64,000 nucleotides of DNA from an uncultured Saprospiraceae bacterium. GTDB lineage: Bacteria; Bacteroidota; Bacteroidia; Chitinophagales; Saprospiraceae. Below, one piece after another: positions 6,112 to 64,000 of the stretch. How positions within the stretch are numbered: the stretch's first letter is position 1; each line of letters opens with the position of its first letter. A program made the translations under genes and the position numbers. Below the pieces are notes generated by a model that saw only the letters and a list, made by a program, of their open reading frames with translations, made no database searches and had not been told where the DNA came from. Location: assembly GCA_937921825.1 (NCBI GenBank), contig CAKZVK010000043.1:1-64000 (forward strand), in the 5' to 3' direction.

Positions 6112-6240
6112 AGACATAGCGCGGCGAAATATCAATAAACAGAATTACAATACAACTCACCGCCTGAGGAACATTTCGCTTCTCTGAAGCTTGCAACTAC
6201 GACTAATTTCTTAGCTACACATATTAGGCTCCTACGGAGC
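6112..6240. repeat. Hairpin repeat unit 1 (worn, lacks type B)
   Basis: The unit starts with a degenerate type A (acatagcgcggcg followed by the usual aaatatcaataaa tail). It then goes straight to a B' hairpin at 6177-6190 and a C hairpin at 6228-6240. The type B hairpin is missing and the short spacer (cgcctgaggaacattt) is diverged from that of the other units. This suggests the oldest or most eroded copy. Confidence 0.75.
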
Positions 6241-6344
6241 TATAAAATAAAAACAAACTACATCCACAGGAAGAACAACTACAAACTACATGCAGACATA
6301 ATACATGCACATATCAACCTCTAATCTAAGAACATATAGCATTA

Positions 6345-6541
6345 GCCACAGCGTGGTGAAATATCAATAAAAGAAAACTCAGATACCACAGCGTGGCAAA
6401 TATCAATAAAACAAAACTCAGATAAAAGACACAGCTCCAGAGGAGTGACATATGAGTCACAGCATGAAGAACATTTCACTTCTCTGAAGCTAGCTCTTCT
6501 ATCCTACTTCTTTGCTATACATATGTAGGCTCCTACTGAGC
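6345..6541. repeat. Hairpin repeat unit 2 (doubled type A, mismatched stems)
   Basis: Two type A hairpins in a row (6345-6357 and 6386-6397), then B at 6433, B' at 6477 and C at 6529. In this unit B (GGAGT), B' (ACTTC) and C (TGAGC) each carry one base that breaks the 5-bp stem, so the copy appears to be decaying. Confidence 0.8.
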
Positions 6542-6645
6542 TATAAAATAAAAACAAACTACATCCTCAGGAAGAAAAACTACTAACTACATGCAGACAT
6601 AATACATACACATTACATCATACGATCTAAGAATATATAGCATCA

Positions 6646-6801
6646 GCCACTGCGTGGCGAAATATCAATAAAAGAAAGCTACTACAAACCTAAGCTCCAG
6701 AGGAGCGACATATGAGTCACAGCATGAAGAACATTTCGCTTCTCTGAAGCTAGCTCTTCTATCCTATTTCTTTGCTATACATATGTGGGCTCCTACGGAG
6801 C
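6646..6801. repeat. Hairpin repeat unit 3 (complete A-B-B'-C)
   Basis: The cleanest unit: A 6646-6658, B 6693-6706, B' 6738-6750 and C 6789-6801, all with intact 5-bp stems. Between B and B' lie about 25 bases (tatgagtcacagcatgaaga and a few more), in the place occupied by the transposase gene in the element at the right end of the window. Confidence 0.85.
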
Positions 6802-6905
6802 TATAAAATAAAAACAAACTACATCCTCAGGAAGAAAAACTACAAACTACATGCAGACATAATAAAGACACATTGCAACCTCTGATCTATGAACATATAG
6901 CATCA

Positions 6906-7273
6906 GCCACAGAGTGGCGAAATATCAATAAAACAAAACTCAGATAAGGGACACAGCTCCAGTAGAGCGATATAGAACCAGCACCATATCCTTACAAATA
7001 ATGAGATCAGCCACAGCGTGGCAAAATATCAATAAAAGAAAAAAATTACTACAATTCCTTAGCTCCAGAGGAGCGATATAGAACCAGCACCATATCCTTG
7101 CAAATAATGAGATCAGCCACAGAGTGGCGAAATATCAATAAAACAAAACTCAGATAAAAGACACAGCTCCAGAGGAGCGACATATGAGTCACAGCATGAA
7201 GAACATTTCGCTTCTCTGAAGCTAGCTCTTCTATCCTATTTCTTTGCTATACATATGTAGGCTCCTACGGAGC
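6906..7273. repeat. Hairpin repeat unit 4 (A-B repeated three times, then B'-C)
   Basis: A 6906, B 6955, A 7010, B 7061, A 7116, B 7165, then B' 7210 and C 7261. The two A-B steps are joined by near-identical 40-base linkers (gatatagaaccagcaccata and the following bases, at about 6969-7009 and 7075-7115). The left half of the unit has thus been amplified without the right half. The B at 6955 has a broken stem (AGAGC). Confidence 0.8.
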
Positions 7274-7395: not shown

Positions 7396-8319
7396 ATGAA
7401 AACCATCCTTCTTCTTTTAGTTCTCCTACCCTTCTCACTAATGAGCCAAAAGTCCTTTGCGCCACTACATGCGGAATGGAACTATGAAGGGCATGACTTA
7501 TACTGTCATGGCAACCACATTAATTATGTGGTGGAGAAAGAAGAAATGATCGACGATAAAGACTGCTCTGTAATTTTTGCCTATAGCTCTAGCGACCTCA
7601 ATCCAAATTTCGACAAAGGTCCTGACAGTCTTATAGTCTGGGAAGATGATAACAAAGTCTACTTCTTAGAAGACACTACTTTCTATCTCCTTTTTAATTT
7701 TGATAATGAAATAGGAGATACAATCACCTATTACGAACCATTTAACAAATATCACTTTAGCTCACAACCATATGACAATACAGCAACTAGTCCGAATAGG
7801 CATCAAGTGATTATCTCAAATATTTCAATGATACAGCTAGGAACACAAGAATTCAGAGAATATGAAAAGATATACCTCAGTGACAATGGGCAGTGTATAG
7901 ACCAGTATCCCTTTATTGAAAATATTGGATCTACCTCACAAATTCTCACAGGAGATAAAGCCTGCTATCTGGCTGATGGCTGTTTCGGTGGCTTACAATG
8001 TTACAGTAATGGCGTCATCGATTACAAAACAGACAAATACTTTGATACACCAAACCCAAGCTGTGATCTCTTAGATTCGACTGAGGAGTTAATAAGTTAC
8101 TCTAACTTGACTCTATTCCCCAATCCAGCAAGTACTGAACTACAGCTTAGAGCAGAAGAGCAAATACTACAAGCAGACCTTATCAACTTCAATGGTCATA
8201 CTGTAAAGACCTTCCATAACACGAAGCATCTTCCAATTGAAGAATTAGATCCAGGTCTCTACTTTCTAAGAATACTCCTAGAAGAGGGGTACGCTACAAT
8301 CAAGTTTGTGAAAGAATAA
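7396..8319 (+). CDS. Secreted protein with T9SS type A sorting domain
   Basis: A 307-residue protein with a Sec signal peptide (MKTILLLLVLLPFSLMSQ). The passenger of about 210 residues is cysteine-containing and I do not recognise it. The C-terminal domain of about 75 residues has the marks of a type IX secretion signal: the FPNPAS motif near residue 240, then two beta-rich segments ending in GLYFLRILLEEGYATIKFVKE. It is predicted to be exported across the outer membrane and attached to the surface or released. No operon partner is visible; the hairpin array lies just upstream. Confidence 0.8.
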   Translation: MKTILLLLVLLPFSLMSQKSFAPLHAEWNYEGHDLYCHGNHINYVVEKEEMIDDKDCSVIFAYSSSDLNPNFDKGPDSLIVWEDDNKVYFLEDTTFYLLFNFDNEIGDTITYYEPFNKYHFSSQPYDNTATSPNRHQVIISNISMIQLGTQEFREYEKIYLSDNGQCIDQYPFIENIGSTSQILTGDKACYLADGCFGGLQCYSNGVIDYKTDKYFDTPNPSCDLLDSTEELISYSNLTLFPNPASTELQLRAEEQILQADLINFNGHTVKTFHNTKHLPIEELDPGLYFLRILLEEGYATIKFVKE

Positions 8320-8607: not shown

Positions 8608-11355
8608 ATGCAAACCCAAACGAAAACTTTCAGTCTATCCTTCGGACAGCTTATTAGCAAGTTGTGCCTTATCAGTATGCTATTTATCGGATTATCACAA
8701 TCCAGTATAGCACAGGATAGCTGTGATCATCTCTTACTTGATTACAGTGCCAGCACTACTTATTATTCAATAGGTGTAAAGAATCCTAGCCAAGAAGAGA
8801 CAAAGTGGTATCTCGAAATTACTAAAGCGCCATATAAACTAGATGAAAACCTATTTAAGAATGCTGAAGGCATCAAATTATCTGTGGAGCTCAGAGAGAA
8901 TGCCAATGGGACCTTTGACTATGTGATAACACCAGATCAGACCATTCAGAGCAATCAGTCACTGAGCTTTATCTATGACGGTGTGCCAGATGGCTCAATT
9001 GGAGGCTATAAAGAAAAAACAAATCTTGTATGCTCTGCTGCTACTCTGGATAGATGTAATCATCTAGAATTGGATTACAATGTCAGTTCTTTATACTATG
9101 CACTAGCGATCAACAATACGAGACTAGAGGAATCTAAGTGGTATCTAGAAATTTTTGAAGCAACCTATAAACTAGATGAAAATCTATTCAAGAATTCAAA
9201 TGGTGTAAAATTATCAGTAGAGCTTACTGAAAATGCAAATGGGACGTTTGACTATCTAATCACACCAGATCAGACAATCAAGGGATATCAATACCTGAAT
9301 TTTATCTATGACGGTGTACCAGAGAGTTCTAACGGAAACTACAGAGCAAGAACGAATCTTGTATGCTCATATAACTATTCTGCGCTATGTGAGAACTTGA
9401 AATTCAACTATTTTAATGAATCTCAATACTCATTTGGATTTAGTGTACAGAATGAAAACAGTGTTGCCTACCATCCATATGAGATTCATATCGATAATGC
9501 GACTTATAAATTGGATCCTGACCAACTAAAGCATGATGGTTTTGACTTTCTAGCAGTAGACAACGGGGACAATACTTTTGATTACTACTTCCTAGCGCAG
9601 GAGCCTATAGAAGCGAATTCAAGTTCGCCAGAAGTAAGAAGCAGTCAAGATCATGGTACAGATATAAAATCTAGTGGTCAATATATTCTTTGTGATGATG
9701 ACATAGTCAGCTCTGGTCTTAATGGTGGTCTTGAAAGCCATGGAGGACTAGCCAGTAAGATAGCACTGAGAAACTTCAAAAGAGCCCTCAGTATCAATAC
9801 TGCTCCAGCTGTCAAAATAGATAACACTATAATTTCAGAACTAGCACCTACACATATACTAGCAGGTGATGAGCTAGTAGAATCCTCTCCTACTGACTTA
9901 GTGGATATCACTATAGCAGATGCGATCTGGGCTGGAGACTACTCTATCAATGGCAGCAGATATGCCTCCATCTTTGGGAGTAAAACAAATACGACAGTCT
10001 ATGATCATACTAAGGCTATCTGCGATCGTGTAAAAGGGTCAGAACTAGTCGCTGTAGAAGTGATAAAAATAAAAGGCTACGAACTGATATTGAGTACCAT
10101 TCGCCGTCCAAATAATATGACGGAGCATGCGATATCATTTTCACTAGCGTATGAAGAACATGGTGATTTTACGATGGCTAGCCACTGGGCGATAGATGAG
10201 TATCCTGAGAGCACGAACTTCCTAAACTATCAAGTATGGACAAACTCCAAAGCCAAAAGCATAGCAGCAGTACAGCACATTATCAATAACGTTACCAATG
10301 AGAAAGGACATACTATTAAGGCCGCTGTAGAATCACCTACAGCACCAAAGCTATTTGCTAGACGTGCTCAGTACAGACTAGGCGCTTTCTATTTAGAGCT
10401 GAATAATGCCTTGACTATACCTACTACTGTCCAGATCTCTGGTGCTTGTATGAGCAAAGAAGTAGACGGAGAGGTATTGCCTTATAACGAAGAGATAGAA
10501 GTAGTACCAGGACAGACAAGTCTTAAACTGGAACTACCTTTTGGAAATATCTTCGATGGACAAGTTAGCATCATCACTGAGGACAATCAGAAAGATGTGA
10601 TCTATCTAGCAGATGGTGCATGGGGTCTTGAATACAATGAATTCAATACTTCTGTTACACAGCTGGAGATTATCCCAGAAAATAGAACTGAGGAAAATGA
10701 CGAGTACCTTGTAGAAAGAGGTATTTCTGTAGCAGGGAATACAGAGACTTATATTTCTATATTCAAACAATTGATTCCTGGTGGACTAGCAGTAGACCTT
10801 TCAGAATACAATACGATGTCTTTTGACTCTCAGAGAGAAGGCGTCTTCGAGGTTACCTTACTTACTGCTGATAATACTGATCCAACTAAAAACTTCAGCC
10901 ATACTCTAAAGGCTGAAGCTGGAAAATCTGTAGATATTCCATTTACAGTATTCAGTAACGCAGACAGAGGACAGATAGACCAAAGTCAGATCACTACGAT
11001 CTACATTGCATTCAAGGAAGCGAATAATGAAGGTGGCGTCTTTGACTTTAGTATCGAAAATATTCGATTTAGAAACAAGGAAGAATCAGAACAGTATGTC
11101 AGACATGATAAGCTCAATATCTACCCTAACCCTGCCGAAGGTGCTGTAAACCTAACGCATACTTTCACAGGAAAATCGGAAGCAGAAATCACTGTCTATG
11201 ACACTAAAGGTGTCGTAGTCAAAAGAATGACGACAACTGTCTACAAAGGACTCCATACTATACCTATCAGATTCAATAACAATGAGGAAGGCTTACACTT
11301 CATCTCACTGAAGACTCCTGAAGGATACTACAGCAATGCAGTCTTACTGAAATAA
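8608..11355 (+). CDS. Large modular secreted protein with T9SS type A sorting domain
   Basis: A 915-residue exported protein (signal peptide about residues 10-36). Three related N-terminal modules start with a Cys (about 39-142, 150-253 and 261-361). The first two are close copies, sharing YKLDENLFKN and ENANGTFDY, while the third is diverged. A middle region from about residue 370 carries GGLESHGGLASKIALRNFKR. A beta-rich, carbohydrate-binding-like region lies around 690-835 (VDLSEYNTMSFDSQREGVFEV). The last 75 residues (IYPNPAEG to SNAVLLK) form a T9SS sorting domain. I infer a surface or released adhesin-like or polymer-binding protein. No catalytic motif is seen. Confidence 0.8.
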   Translation: MQTQTKTFSLSFGQLISKLCLISMLFIGLSQSSIAQDSCDHLLLDYSASTTYYSIGVKNPSQEETKWYLEITKAPYKLDENLFKNAEGIKLSVELRENANGTFDYVITPDQTIQSNQSLSFIYDGVPDGSIGGYKEKTNLVCSAATLDRCNHLELDYNVSSLYYALAINNTRLEESKWYLEIFEATYKLDENLFKNSNGVKLSVELTENANGTFDYLITPDQTIKGYQYLNFIYDGVPESSNGNYRARTNLVCSYNYSALCENLKFNYFNESQYSFGFSVQNENSVAYHPYEIHIDNATYKLDPDQLKHDGFDFLAVDNGDNTFDYYFLAQEPIEANSSSPEVRSSQDHGTDIKSSGQYILCDDDIVSSGLNGGLESHGGLASKIALRNFKRALSINTAPAVKIDNTIISELAPTHILAGDELVESSPTDLVDITIADAIWAGDYSINGSRYASIFGSKTNTTVYDHTKAICDRVKGSELVAVEVIKIKGYELILSTIRRPNNMTEHAISFSLAYEEHGDFTMASHWAIDEYPESTNFLNYQVWTNSKAKSIAAVQHIINNVTNEKGHTIKAAVESPTAPKLFARRAQYRLGAFYLELNNALTIPTTVQISGACMSKEVDGEVLPYNEEIEVVPGQTSLKLELPFGNIFDGQVSIITEDNQKDVIYLADGAWGLEYNEFNTSVTQLEIIPENRTEENDEYLVERGISVAGNTETYISIFKQLIPGGLAVDLSEYNTMSFDSQREGVFEVTLLTADNTDPTKNFSHTLKAEAGKSVDIPFTVFSNADRGQIDQSQITTIYIAFKEANNEGGVFDFSIENIRFRNKEESEQYVRHDKLNIYPNPAEGAVNLTHTFTGKSEAEITVYDTKGVVVKRMTTTVYKGLHTIPIRFNNNEEGLHFISLKTPEGYYSNAVLLK

Positions 11356-63357: not shown

Positions 63358-63965
63358 GCCACAGCGTGGCAACACATTAATAGAATATATTCATTATGAT
63401 TTCGCAGCTCCAGAGGAGCGACATAAAATTTCTAGCAAATGGCCAACACCTATTCACAACTATATTTCCACGTCGTATTTGCCGTAAGGGGCAGAGCGAA
63501 TCACATTAGCATTCAATGGAAAGATGAATTGTATAAATACATCACAGGGATCATATCTAACAAAGACCAAAAGCTAATGCAAATTAACGGCATGCCTGAC
63601 CATATACATTTGTTAATTGGAACTAAACCAAATTGCAATCTGTCAGATCTTGTGAGAGATATAAAATCAAATAGCTCTAAATGGATAAATGAAAAAGGAT
63701 TTATAAAATCCAAATTCTCTTGGCAAATAGGCTTTGGAGCATTTACTGTTAGTCAATCCCAGCTAAGTAGGATAACCAATTATATTATAAATCAGGAGGA
63801 TCATCATCGAAAGAAATCATTCAAAGAGGAATATGTAGAATTCCTAGATGCTTATAAAATCGACTATAAGGATGAATATCTATTCGAATGATAAAATATG
63901 TCGCTTCTCTGAAGCTCATAGATGTATCGTAATTATTATCTAATCATATTTAGCTCCTCTGGAGC
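63358..63965 (+). mobile_element. IS200-like/REP-type element with paired hairpin ends
   Basis: The transposase gene is bordered on the left by hairpin A (GCCAC-AGC-GTGGC, 63358-63370) and hairpin B (GCTCC-AGA-GGAGC with GACATA, 63406-63425). On the right lie B' (TATGTCGCTTCTCTGAAGC, about 63897-63915) and C (GCTCC-TCT-GGAGC, 63953-63965). The four types and their order are those of the array at 6112-7273. Y1 transposases recognise such subterminal hairpins in single-stranded DNA; the element probably defines the mobile unit that gave rise to the array. Exact cleavage sites are not visible. Confidence 0.75.
63439..63891 (+). CDS. tnpA: IS200-like Y1 transposase
   Basis: 150 residues of the IS200/REP-associated tyrosine transposase family. 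The HUH motif is His55-Ile-His57 (GMPDHIHLLIG), and the catalytic tyrosine is Tyr115 (NYIINQEDHH), followed by the conserved Gln and His residues. The protein is full length and has no frameshift. No tnpB accompanies it. The flanking hairpins are described with the element; the gene may be a host-adapted single-copy transposase that spreads short repeats rather than itself. Confidence 0.93.
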   Translation: MANTYSQLYFHVVFAVRGRANHISIQWKDELYKYITGIISNKDQKLMQINGMPDHIHLLIGTKPNCNLSDLVRDIKSNSSKWINEKGFIKSKFSWQIGFGAFTVSQSQLSRITNYIINQEDHHRKKSFKEEYVEFLDAYKIDYKDEYLFE

Positions 63966-64000
63966 TCTTCATTTAAGAAGTCATCTACTAGAACGCGGAC

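Follow-up and report, generated by a model that had tools for sequence, protein, structure and literature searches.

A single-copy subclass 1.2 Y1 transposase of a Saprospiraceae bacterium and its probable REP-like substrate with two-hairpin arms

The transposase gene tnpA of an uncultured Saprospiraceae bacterium stands between two arms of short hairpins, and the same hairpins in the same order constitute gene-less arrays elsewhere in the genome. In our reading, which we consider probable, a single-copy Y1 transposase of subclass 1.2 is accompanied by its own REP-like substrate, the whole resembling a REPtron with its REPINs and differing from it by two-hairpin arms. The window (the whole stretch of DNA analyzed, 64,000 nt of contig C43) contains both the gene and one of the arrays. 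The gene and its four hairpins, denoted A, B, B' and C, are as follows:

63439 to 63891, plus strand: tnpA, 150 aa, Y1/HUH transposase with the subclass 1.2 signature (DHIH, WQ, Y115-x3-Q-x2-HH)
63358 to 63370, plus strand: hairpin A, outer left, followed by AACACATTAATAG, with the TAG motif at +10 to +12
63407 to 63419, plus strand: hairpin B, inner left, with the tag GACATA towards the gene
63903 to 63915, minus strand: hairpin B', inner right, with the tag GACATA (minus strand) towards the gene
63952 to 63966, minus strand: hairpin C, outer right, followed on the minus strand by AAATATGATTAG

As the arms point inward, the arrangement is A> B> gene <B' <C, with gaps of 36 nt between A and B, 483 nt between B and B' across the gene, and 36 nt between B' and C. 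The tnpA region extends beyond the window end, to about C43:64722-64723, the gene-bearing unit being followed by two gene-less units of approximately 302 bp each and one further A–B, some of these hairpins being defective.

The region 6112–7273 contains 13 perfect hairpins (stem of at least 5, loop of 3–4, at least three G/C in the inner stem), as found by scripted mapping and direct reading of the window; elsewhere in the window, with this array and the tnpA region set aside, any stretch of 1162 bp has at most two. The positions below come from scripted mapping unless indicated otherwise:

6112 to 7273, no strand assigned: gene-less hairpin array with four B'–C pairs, two intact A-B-B'-C units, two degenerate ones, and two extra A–B halves
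6178 to 6190, minus strand: B'1
6228 to 6240, minus strand: C1
6345 to 6357, plus strand: A2, one stem mismatch, with a second short copy A2' at 6386–6396 (by eye)
6434 to 6446, plus strand: B2, one stem mismatch (direct reading and genome pattern search)
6479 to 6489, minus strand: B'2, 4-bp stem (by eye)
6529 to 6541, minus strand: C2, one stem mismatch (by eye)
6646 to 6658, plus strand: A3
6694 to 6706, plus strand: B3
6738 to 6750, minus strand: B'3
6789 to 6801, minus strand: C3
6906 to 6918, plus strand: A4
6956 to 6968, plus strand: B4, defective stem (direct reading and genome pattern search)
7010 to 7022, plus strand: A5
7062 to 7074, plus strand: B5
7116 to 7128, plus strand: A6
7166 to 7178, plus strand: B6
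7210 to 7222, minus strand: B'4
7261 to 7273, minus strand: C4

The 5' part of this array (array 1) comprises a decayed A1 with B'1–C1 and then A2–A2'–B2–B'2–C2, each with a defect, while in the 3' part the intact unit A3–B3–B'3–C3 is followed by A4–B4, A5–B5, and the intact unit A6–B6–B'4–C4. The gaps are 35–39 nt between A and B, 31 nt between B and B', and 37–38 nt between B' and C. An earlier reading of the window from the sequence alone (the sequence-only reading) had described the order A-B-B'-C as repeated four times here and as flanking the transposase gene as well. Read directly and mapped by script, the array is real, and the same four hairpins do flank tnpA in the same order; as there are four B'–C pairs but only two intact units, the fourfold repetition is right in outline, and the spacer replacing the gene measures 31 nt rather than about 25 bases.

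The genome was scanned with the pattern of hairpin B, allowing for at most two mismatches, which yielded 27 matches; three contigs account for 25 of these, with 17 on C43 (in array 1 and the tnpA region), six on C154, and two on C152, while the reversed pattern used as a control matched once. The arrays on C154 and C152 also have the order A-B-B'-C, on the minus strand; this order holds at four places, and random order has not been found. In this search, gene-less hairpins of the genome are seen only in clusters. The DNA of the array has no match among plasmid records, and in the literature searched, the exact hairpin strings occur only in six unrelated papers, by chance. The gene at 7396–8319, flanking array 1, has long homologues in the genus that are just 29–43% identical, as well as short partial matches, and because of this divergence there is no empty-site comparison for array 1. 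The proteins encoded at 7396–8319 and 8608–11355, to the right of the array, carry a Por secretion-system C-terminal sorting domain.

TnpA matches the Pfam family Y1_Tnp at 1e-28 and passes the NCBIfam IS200/IS605 model (74.3 bits, cut-off 55), and its best-matching solved chains are transposases, including 2xm3 and 2a6m. IS200/IS605 TnpA proteins (subclass 1.1; e.g., those of ISDra2 and IS608) have the same Y1/HUH core, and these chains are among the best matches. In 24 sequences, residues H55, H57, W95, Q96, Y115, Q119, H122, and H123 are invariant, and the NP motif after the catalytic tyrosine is absent, YIxNQxxHH being found instead. Judged by its sequence, TnpA belongs to the Y1/HUH transposases and bears the signature Y---Q--HH that marks TnpA_Y1 subclass 1.2, and it agrees with the description of this subclass (Quentin et al., 2018; PMC6006769) in the motifs DH[IV]H, WQ, and Y---Q--HH, in length (about 148 aa in the description, 150 aa here), in the low copy number, and in belonging to Bacteroidetes, which together with Cyanobacteria are the groups given for the subclass. 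RAYT proteins have the NP motif, whereas TnpA lacks it and fails the NCBIfam REP_Tyr_transpos model (37.8 bits, cut-off 80), and membership in RAYT/TnpA_REP is rejected on these two grounds. The sequence-only reading had taken the arrays for gene-less copies of the ends of a RAYT-like transposase; the part about gene-less copies is upheld by the common order at four places and by equivalent units in another genus, while the enzyme is not a RAYT.

The genome has one close tnpA homologue, the second match having E 0.006 and 30% identity. In the genus, homologues are present in four of 14 genomes, the source genome included, one of them being a fragment, and in the family, 172 of 298 genomes have a homologue (E 1e-10), with up to ten copies in G257. 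Named relatives (the best 80 of more than 580) are spread over Bacteroidota, with a few MAG records titled as other phyla. Among viral contigs there are 116 pattern matches, none of which is a relative; 83 plasmid records have a match, the best two being from Bernardetia (53%) and Persicobacter (36%). One IS200-type gene with the motif YIEEQEMHH (L229) occupies six places in an alphaproteobacterial Megaera plasmid (NZ_CP104168.1).

The score with the IS200/IS605 model and the decayed hairpins in array 1 would both fit a conventional, autonomous insertion sequence of the IS200 type, with ends duplicated by chance recombination and with arrays that are dead satellite DNA, an explanation that we consider unlikely. 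Such elements multiply as whole insertion sequences, and several near-identical whole copies would be expected, while here there is one close copy, and the homologues, though common in the family, are diverged, unlike those of an active insertion sequence. The setting of the gene is a further point in favor of this explanation. A small conserved gene directly follows purB in nine of 11 relatives with sequence available downstream of purB, and another gene in the remaining two; none of the 11 has hairpins in the 450 nt examined downstream of purB. Here, the interval between purB and the small gene is occupied by tnpA with its hairpins, by its array, and by an ABC-F gene (positions 2072–3709 of L030, G000:C43:62800-72000). 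In five examined relatives with a full-length, close ABC-F, this gene adjoins other genes. From this comparison of sequences the purB–tnpA region is rearranged, from which no mechanism follows; the breakpoint is possibly at the array.

The flanks of tnpA homologues have been analyzed at 111 loci, 31 of them from searches in the source genome, the genus, and the family, and 80 from named relatives. Duplicates (L120, L087, L107, and L111) were kept for hairpin density, the tag profile, counts of tagged types, and the tree, and dropped for gaps and the TAG count, and hence two different sets of 107 loci appear below, one of loci with both flanks (tagged hairpins) and one of non-redundant loci (gaps). 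The tags and the TAG motif were counted on the very loci (the 111) where they had been discovered, a circularity answered in part by controls (inner hairpins, the far side of hairpins, distant stretches) and by 36 further loci.

Within 100 nt of the gene, the 111 loci have 8.9 hairpins per kb upstream and 12.7 downstream, compared to 0.4 and 0.65 in shuffled sequences, that is, approximately 20 times the shuffled density; beyond 800 nt the density is near the background, and it equals 0.7–0.9 per kb at 1.5–3 kb. Most homologues carry hairpins, and their absence around other copies of the gene, which would have spoken against the sequence-only reading, is not what we observe. A gene-facing tag, G-A-C/A-A-T, found in a motif-free manner, is clearer upstream than downstream, while the far side of hairpins shows little signal except for an A adjoining the stem. 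A tagged hairpin of any of three types lies within 300 nt of the gene at 81 of the 107 loci with both flanks (on both sides at 43), compared to one of 62 at 1.5–1.8 kb; 26 of the 107 loci have none of the three types. Type-a tags face inward in 151 cases and outward in 42. Where both sides carry type a, the stem is common to both at 22 of 33 loci (on permutation, 10.5 on average and 19 at most). A GT[AG]G tag 5' of the hairpin is not found, the gene-side tag being ATGTC or ATTTC on the other strand; the suggestion of GTAG as a general tag has to be abandoned, since only C in array 1 has GTAG, as judged by position, and C at the gene does not.

Neighboring hairpins are separated by 33–41 nt in 152 of 292 gaps at the 107 non-redundant loci, the mode being 37 nt, while the adjoining bins of 24–32 and 42–50 nt contain only 17 and seven gaps, respectively. 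A pair with this spacing is present on at least one side of the gene at 75 loci, on both sides at 30, and on neither at 32. The trinucleotide TAG is found 8–14 nt beyond the outer hairpin, on its gene-facing side, in 69 of 103 arms, approximately at position 10, compared to two of 74 beyond the inner hairpin and five of 101 on the far side. Similar figures are obtained for the 36 further loci, where TAG accompanies 18 of 28 outer hairpins, one of 28 inner hairpins, and two of 28 far sides, the pair is present at 21 loci and absent at 15, and 46 of 102 gaps fall into the 33–41 nt range and 13 into the 42–50 nt range; within this set, L257 is the same gene as L128, two loci lack the full Y---Q--HH, and the hairpins of 16 had been inspected before counting.

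The two-hairpin pair is absent in ten IS200-family loci from plasmids, one of which, the Megaera gene L229, carries Y---Q--HH and eight of which have a second gene following closely, so that at these eight only the upstream side offers a fair comparison; the Bernardetia plasmid homologue has no pair either. This absence speaks against an ordinary insertion sequence, as does the recurrence of the same order and geometry in unrelated genomes. Moreover, the arm geometry and tags recur across Bacteroidota, and in a few MAGs titled as other phyla, a recurrence that decay would not produce. It had been supposed that such a Bacteroidota version could be little described; the design is not peculiar to this genome, arms being present at most examined homologues.

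Hairpin arms at most loci also contrast with the published account of subclass 1.2, in which Table 1 gives REP “no” and IS200-type structures at the ends are said to be generally lacking (Quentin et al., 2018; PMC6006769). The automatic search in that study accepted only hairpins with GTAG or GTGG and with a basal stem no shorter than 7, and because of this, 5-bp hairpins tagged with GACAT would have been missed. In the literature searched, the coverage of which is incomplete, we have found no report of REPs with subclass 1.2. “RayT” genes have been described near abeS in Chryseobacterium, hairpins not being mentioned in the relevant text of that article (PMC11194056).

Hairpin types form clusters on the protein tree, with 23 changes compared to 45.2 in shuffled data (none of 200 shuffles being as low), while type c taken alone is hardly clustered (nine changes compared to 10.6; 18 of 500 shuffles as low). 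Together with the single close copy and the wide distribution of the gene, this clustering is also what one would expect of a domesticated Y1 nuclease, for which the hairpins would be fixed chromosomal sites, serving, for example, the processing of stalled forks or chromosome folding, and the spread of units slow and incidental. We regard this explanation as quite unlikely, in view of gene-less units in other genomes.

In G303, representing another genus of the family, we observe the nested A-B-B'-C design with other stems, gaps of 41, 29, and 41, and the tags GAAATAT at the outer and GACATA at the inner hairpins, full gene-less units being present on six contigs, the query locus included. The matching stretch extends 1 to approximately 31 bases past the outer hairpins, the tightest one spanning 396–560 with the hairpins at 397–559. 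Three relatives (G236, G179, and G090) have the left-hand neighbor gene of the G303 unit and no unit, the right flank being unaligned, and thus do not provide a clean empty site. Inverted pairs approximately 45 nt apart are numerous in G224, and G140 has seven places with inverted outer-type pairs, whose starts are 164–204 nt apart. Inverted hairpins, inward tags, and dispersed copies, the traits of REPINs, are thus found together in other genomes. The many similar gene-less copies in G303, G224, and G140 point to copying, and repeat numbers are very uneven among relatives; both observations argue against fixed chromosomal sites of a domesticated nuclease.

Overall, the type-a pattern has 1261 matches in the 298 family genomes, compared to 87 for the reversed control, and at least five matches are found in 49 of the 172 gene-bearing genomes and in 11 of the 126 others (p 2e-5). 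The pairing of genes and repeats was considered in five repeat-rich genomes, using the flanks of all 21 tnpA copies at E 1e-10 or better. The main family of G224 (GTCCC, GACCT) is found on both sides of one of three copies, the other two having different hairpins; that of G257 (GTCCC, GAAAT; nine of the 12 matches listed, out of 44) accompanies two of ten copies; none of the four copies in G180 matches the main family, while one matches a minor family; and in G140 and G236, with two copies each, the dispersed stems match no tnpA flank. As many copies have hairpins of their own, while the main dispersed family is matched in two of the five genomes, the link between these families and a gene, as judged from flanking sequences, appears to hold only in part. 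Neither G303 (31 matches) nor G072 (56 matches) has a homologue even at E 0.001, which may be due to another enzyme, loss of the gene, or incomplete assembly, the completeness being 66% for G303 and 94% for G072, and all genomes studied being drafts. Several homologues are present in G257 (L276, L280, L284, L287, L290–L295) and G224 (L040, L279, L286), most with a hairpin sequence of their own, as if separate enzyme–repeat pairs coexisted in one genome.

The hairpins might also act as RNA, being terminators, mRNA stabilizers, or a control element of tnpA, and have spread for that reason, which seems to us very improbable. REPs play such roles in other bacteria (PMC6006769), and the minus strand of the array has three terminator-like sites, compared to 0.6 expected. 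Against 13 perfect and several defective hairpins, however, a T-rich tail at three sites is a small number, and an intrinsic terminator function is rejected as the main role. Furthermore, the arms are symmetrical about the gene with the tags directed inward on both sides, and thus are ill suited to a strand-specific RNA signal, and no Rfam family reaches its gathering score, the best matches being microRNA families far below theirs.

Under the preferred reading, in which a subclass 1.2 transposase comes with its own REP-like substrate, the gene is bounded on either side by an arm of two short hairpins approximately 37 nt apart, both arms directed inward. The enzyme likely acts on these arms, given their geometry and the clustering of hairpin types on the protein tree, and most likely recognizes the hairpins with their tags on single-stranded DNA, e.g., at replication forks, as TnpA_REP and IS200 TnpA do. 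Within each arm, cleavage would take place in the interval separating the two hairpins, close to the conserved TAG, which reads CTA on the opposite strand; placing the cut at CTA is guesswork, prompted by where the motif stands and by the C|T cut of TnpA_REP (PMC8266576). Gene-less four-hairpin units would be moved or copied in trans, and arrays would represent clusters of units, extended when equal arms recombine or when transfer takes place between them. Binding, cleavage, mobilization in trans, and array growth are all steps that we infer from the arrangement described above.

The likeness to REPtrons, that is, RAYT genes with REPINs, consists in a single transposase gene located between inverted tagged hairpins (PMC2817692, PMC6006769, PMC8266576) and in gene-less inverted copies elsewhere in the genome. 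On the other hand, the tag of RAYT-associated REPs is GTAG, whereas here it is GACAT or GAAAT, and each side has two hairpins with a gap of approximately 37 nt, TAG being present at the outer one only. A more specific version, which is possible but which we hold doubtful, would make subclass 1.2 a second independent REPtron lineage, with a pair of hairpins on the same strand so spaced that one TnpA dimer binds both, the outer one carrying the cut site CTA and the inner one serving for docking only. As the arms are inverted, either strand could be processed, and transfer between equal arms would add or remove periods and so produce tandem arrays.

Subclass 1.2 enzymes are widespread in Bacteroidota and have been on record without a substrate; the arms described here offer a precise candidate, defined by its favored geometry, its tag, and a possible site of cleavage, and available in the form of oligonucleotides made to order. 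If the preferred reading is true, RAYTs are not the only transposase class accompanied by REP-like repeats, and a type of repeat common in these genomes has its explanation. CGTC-tagged REPs may be related, but this is a lead only: their tag is often TGTC, to be compared with ATGTC on the complementary strand here, they occur in Bacteroidetes, and they are reported to lack a dedicated transposase, while their stems are 8–9 bp with loops of 4–5 nt, compared to 5 bp and 3 nt here (PMC3733652).

Two further kinds of hairpins are observed at the homologue loci. A second type has 7-bp stems, CGACCCC...GGGGTCG or TGACCCC...GGGGTCA, followed by CAYRT (L045, L058, L063, L064, L106, and others); it is found mostly in one clade of the protein tree, in some cases with a gap of 16 nt and not 37 nt. 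A third type, GTCCC and GGGAC separated by 4 nt and followed by ATATGGGTAG (L082, L114, L134, and L049), occurs mostly in another clade, and its tag resembles that of the outer hairpins in G303.
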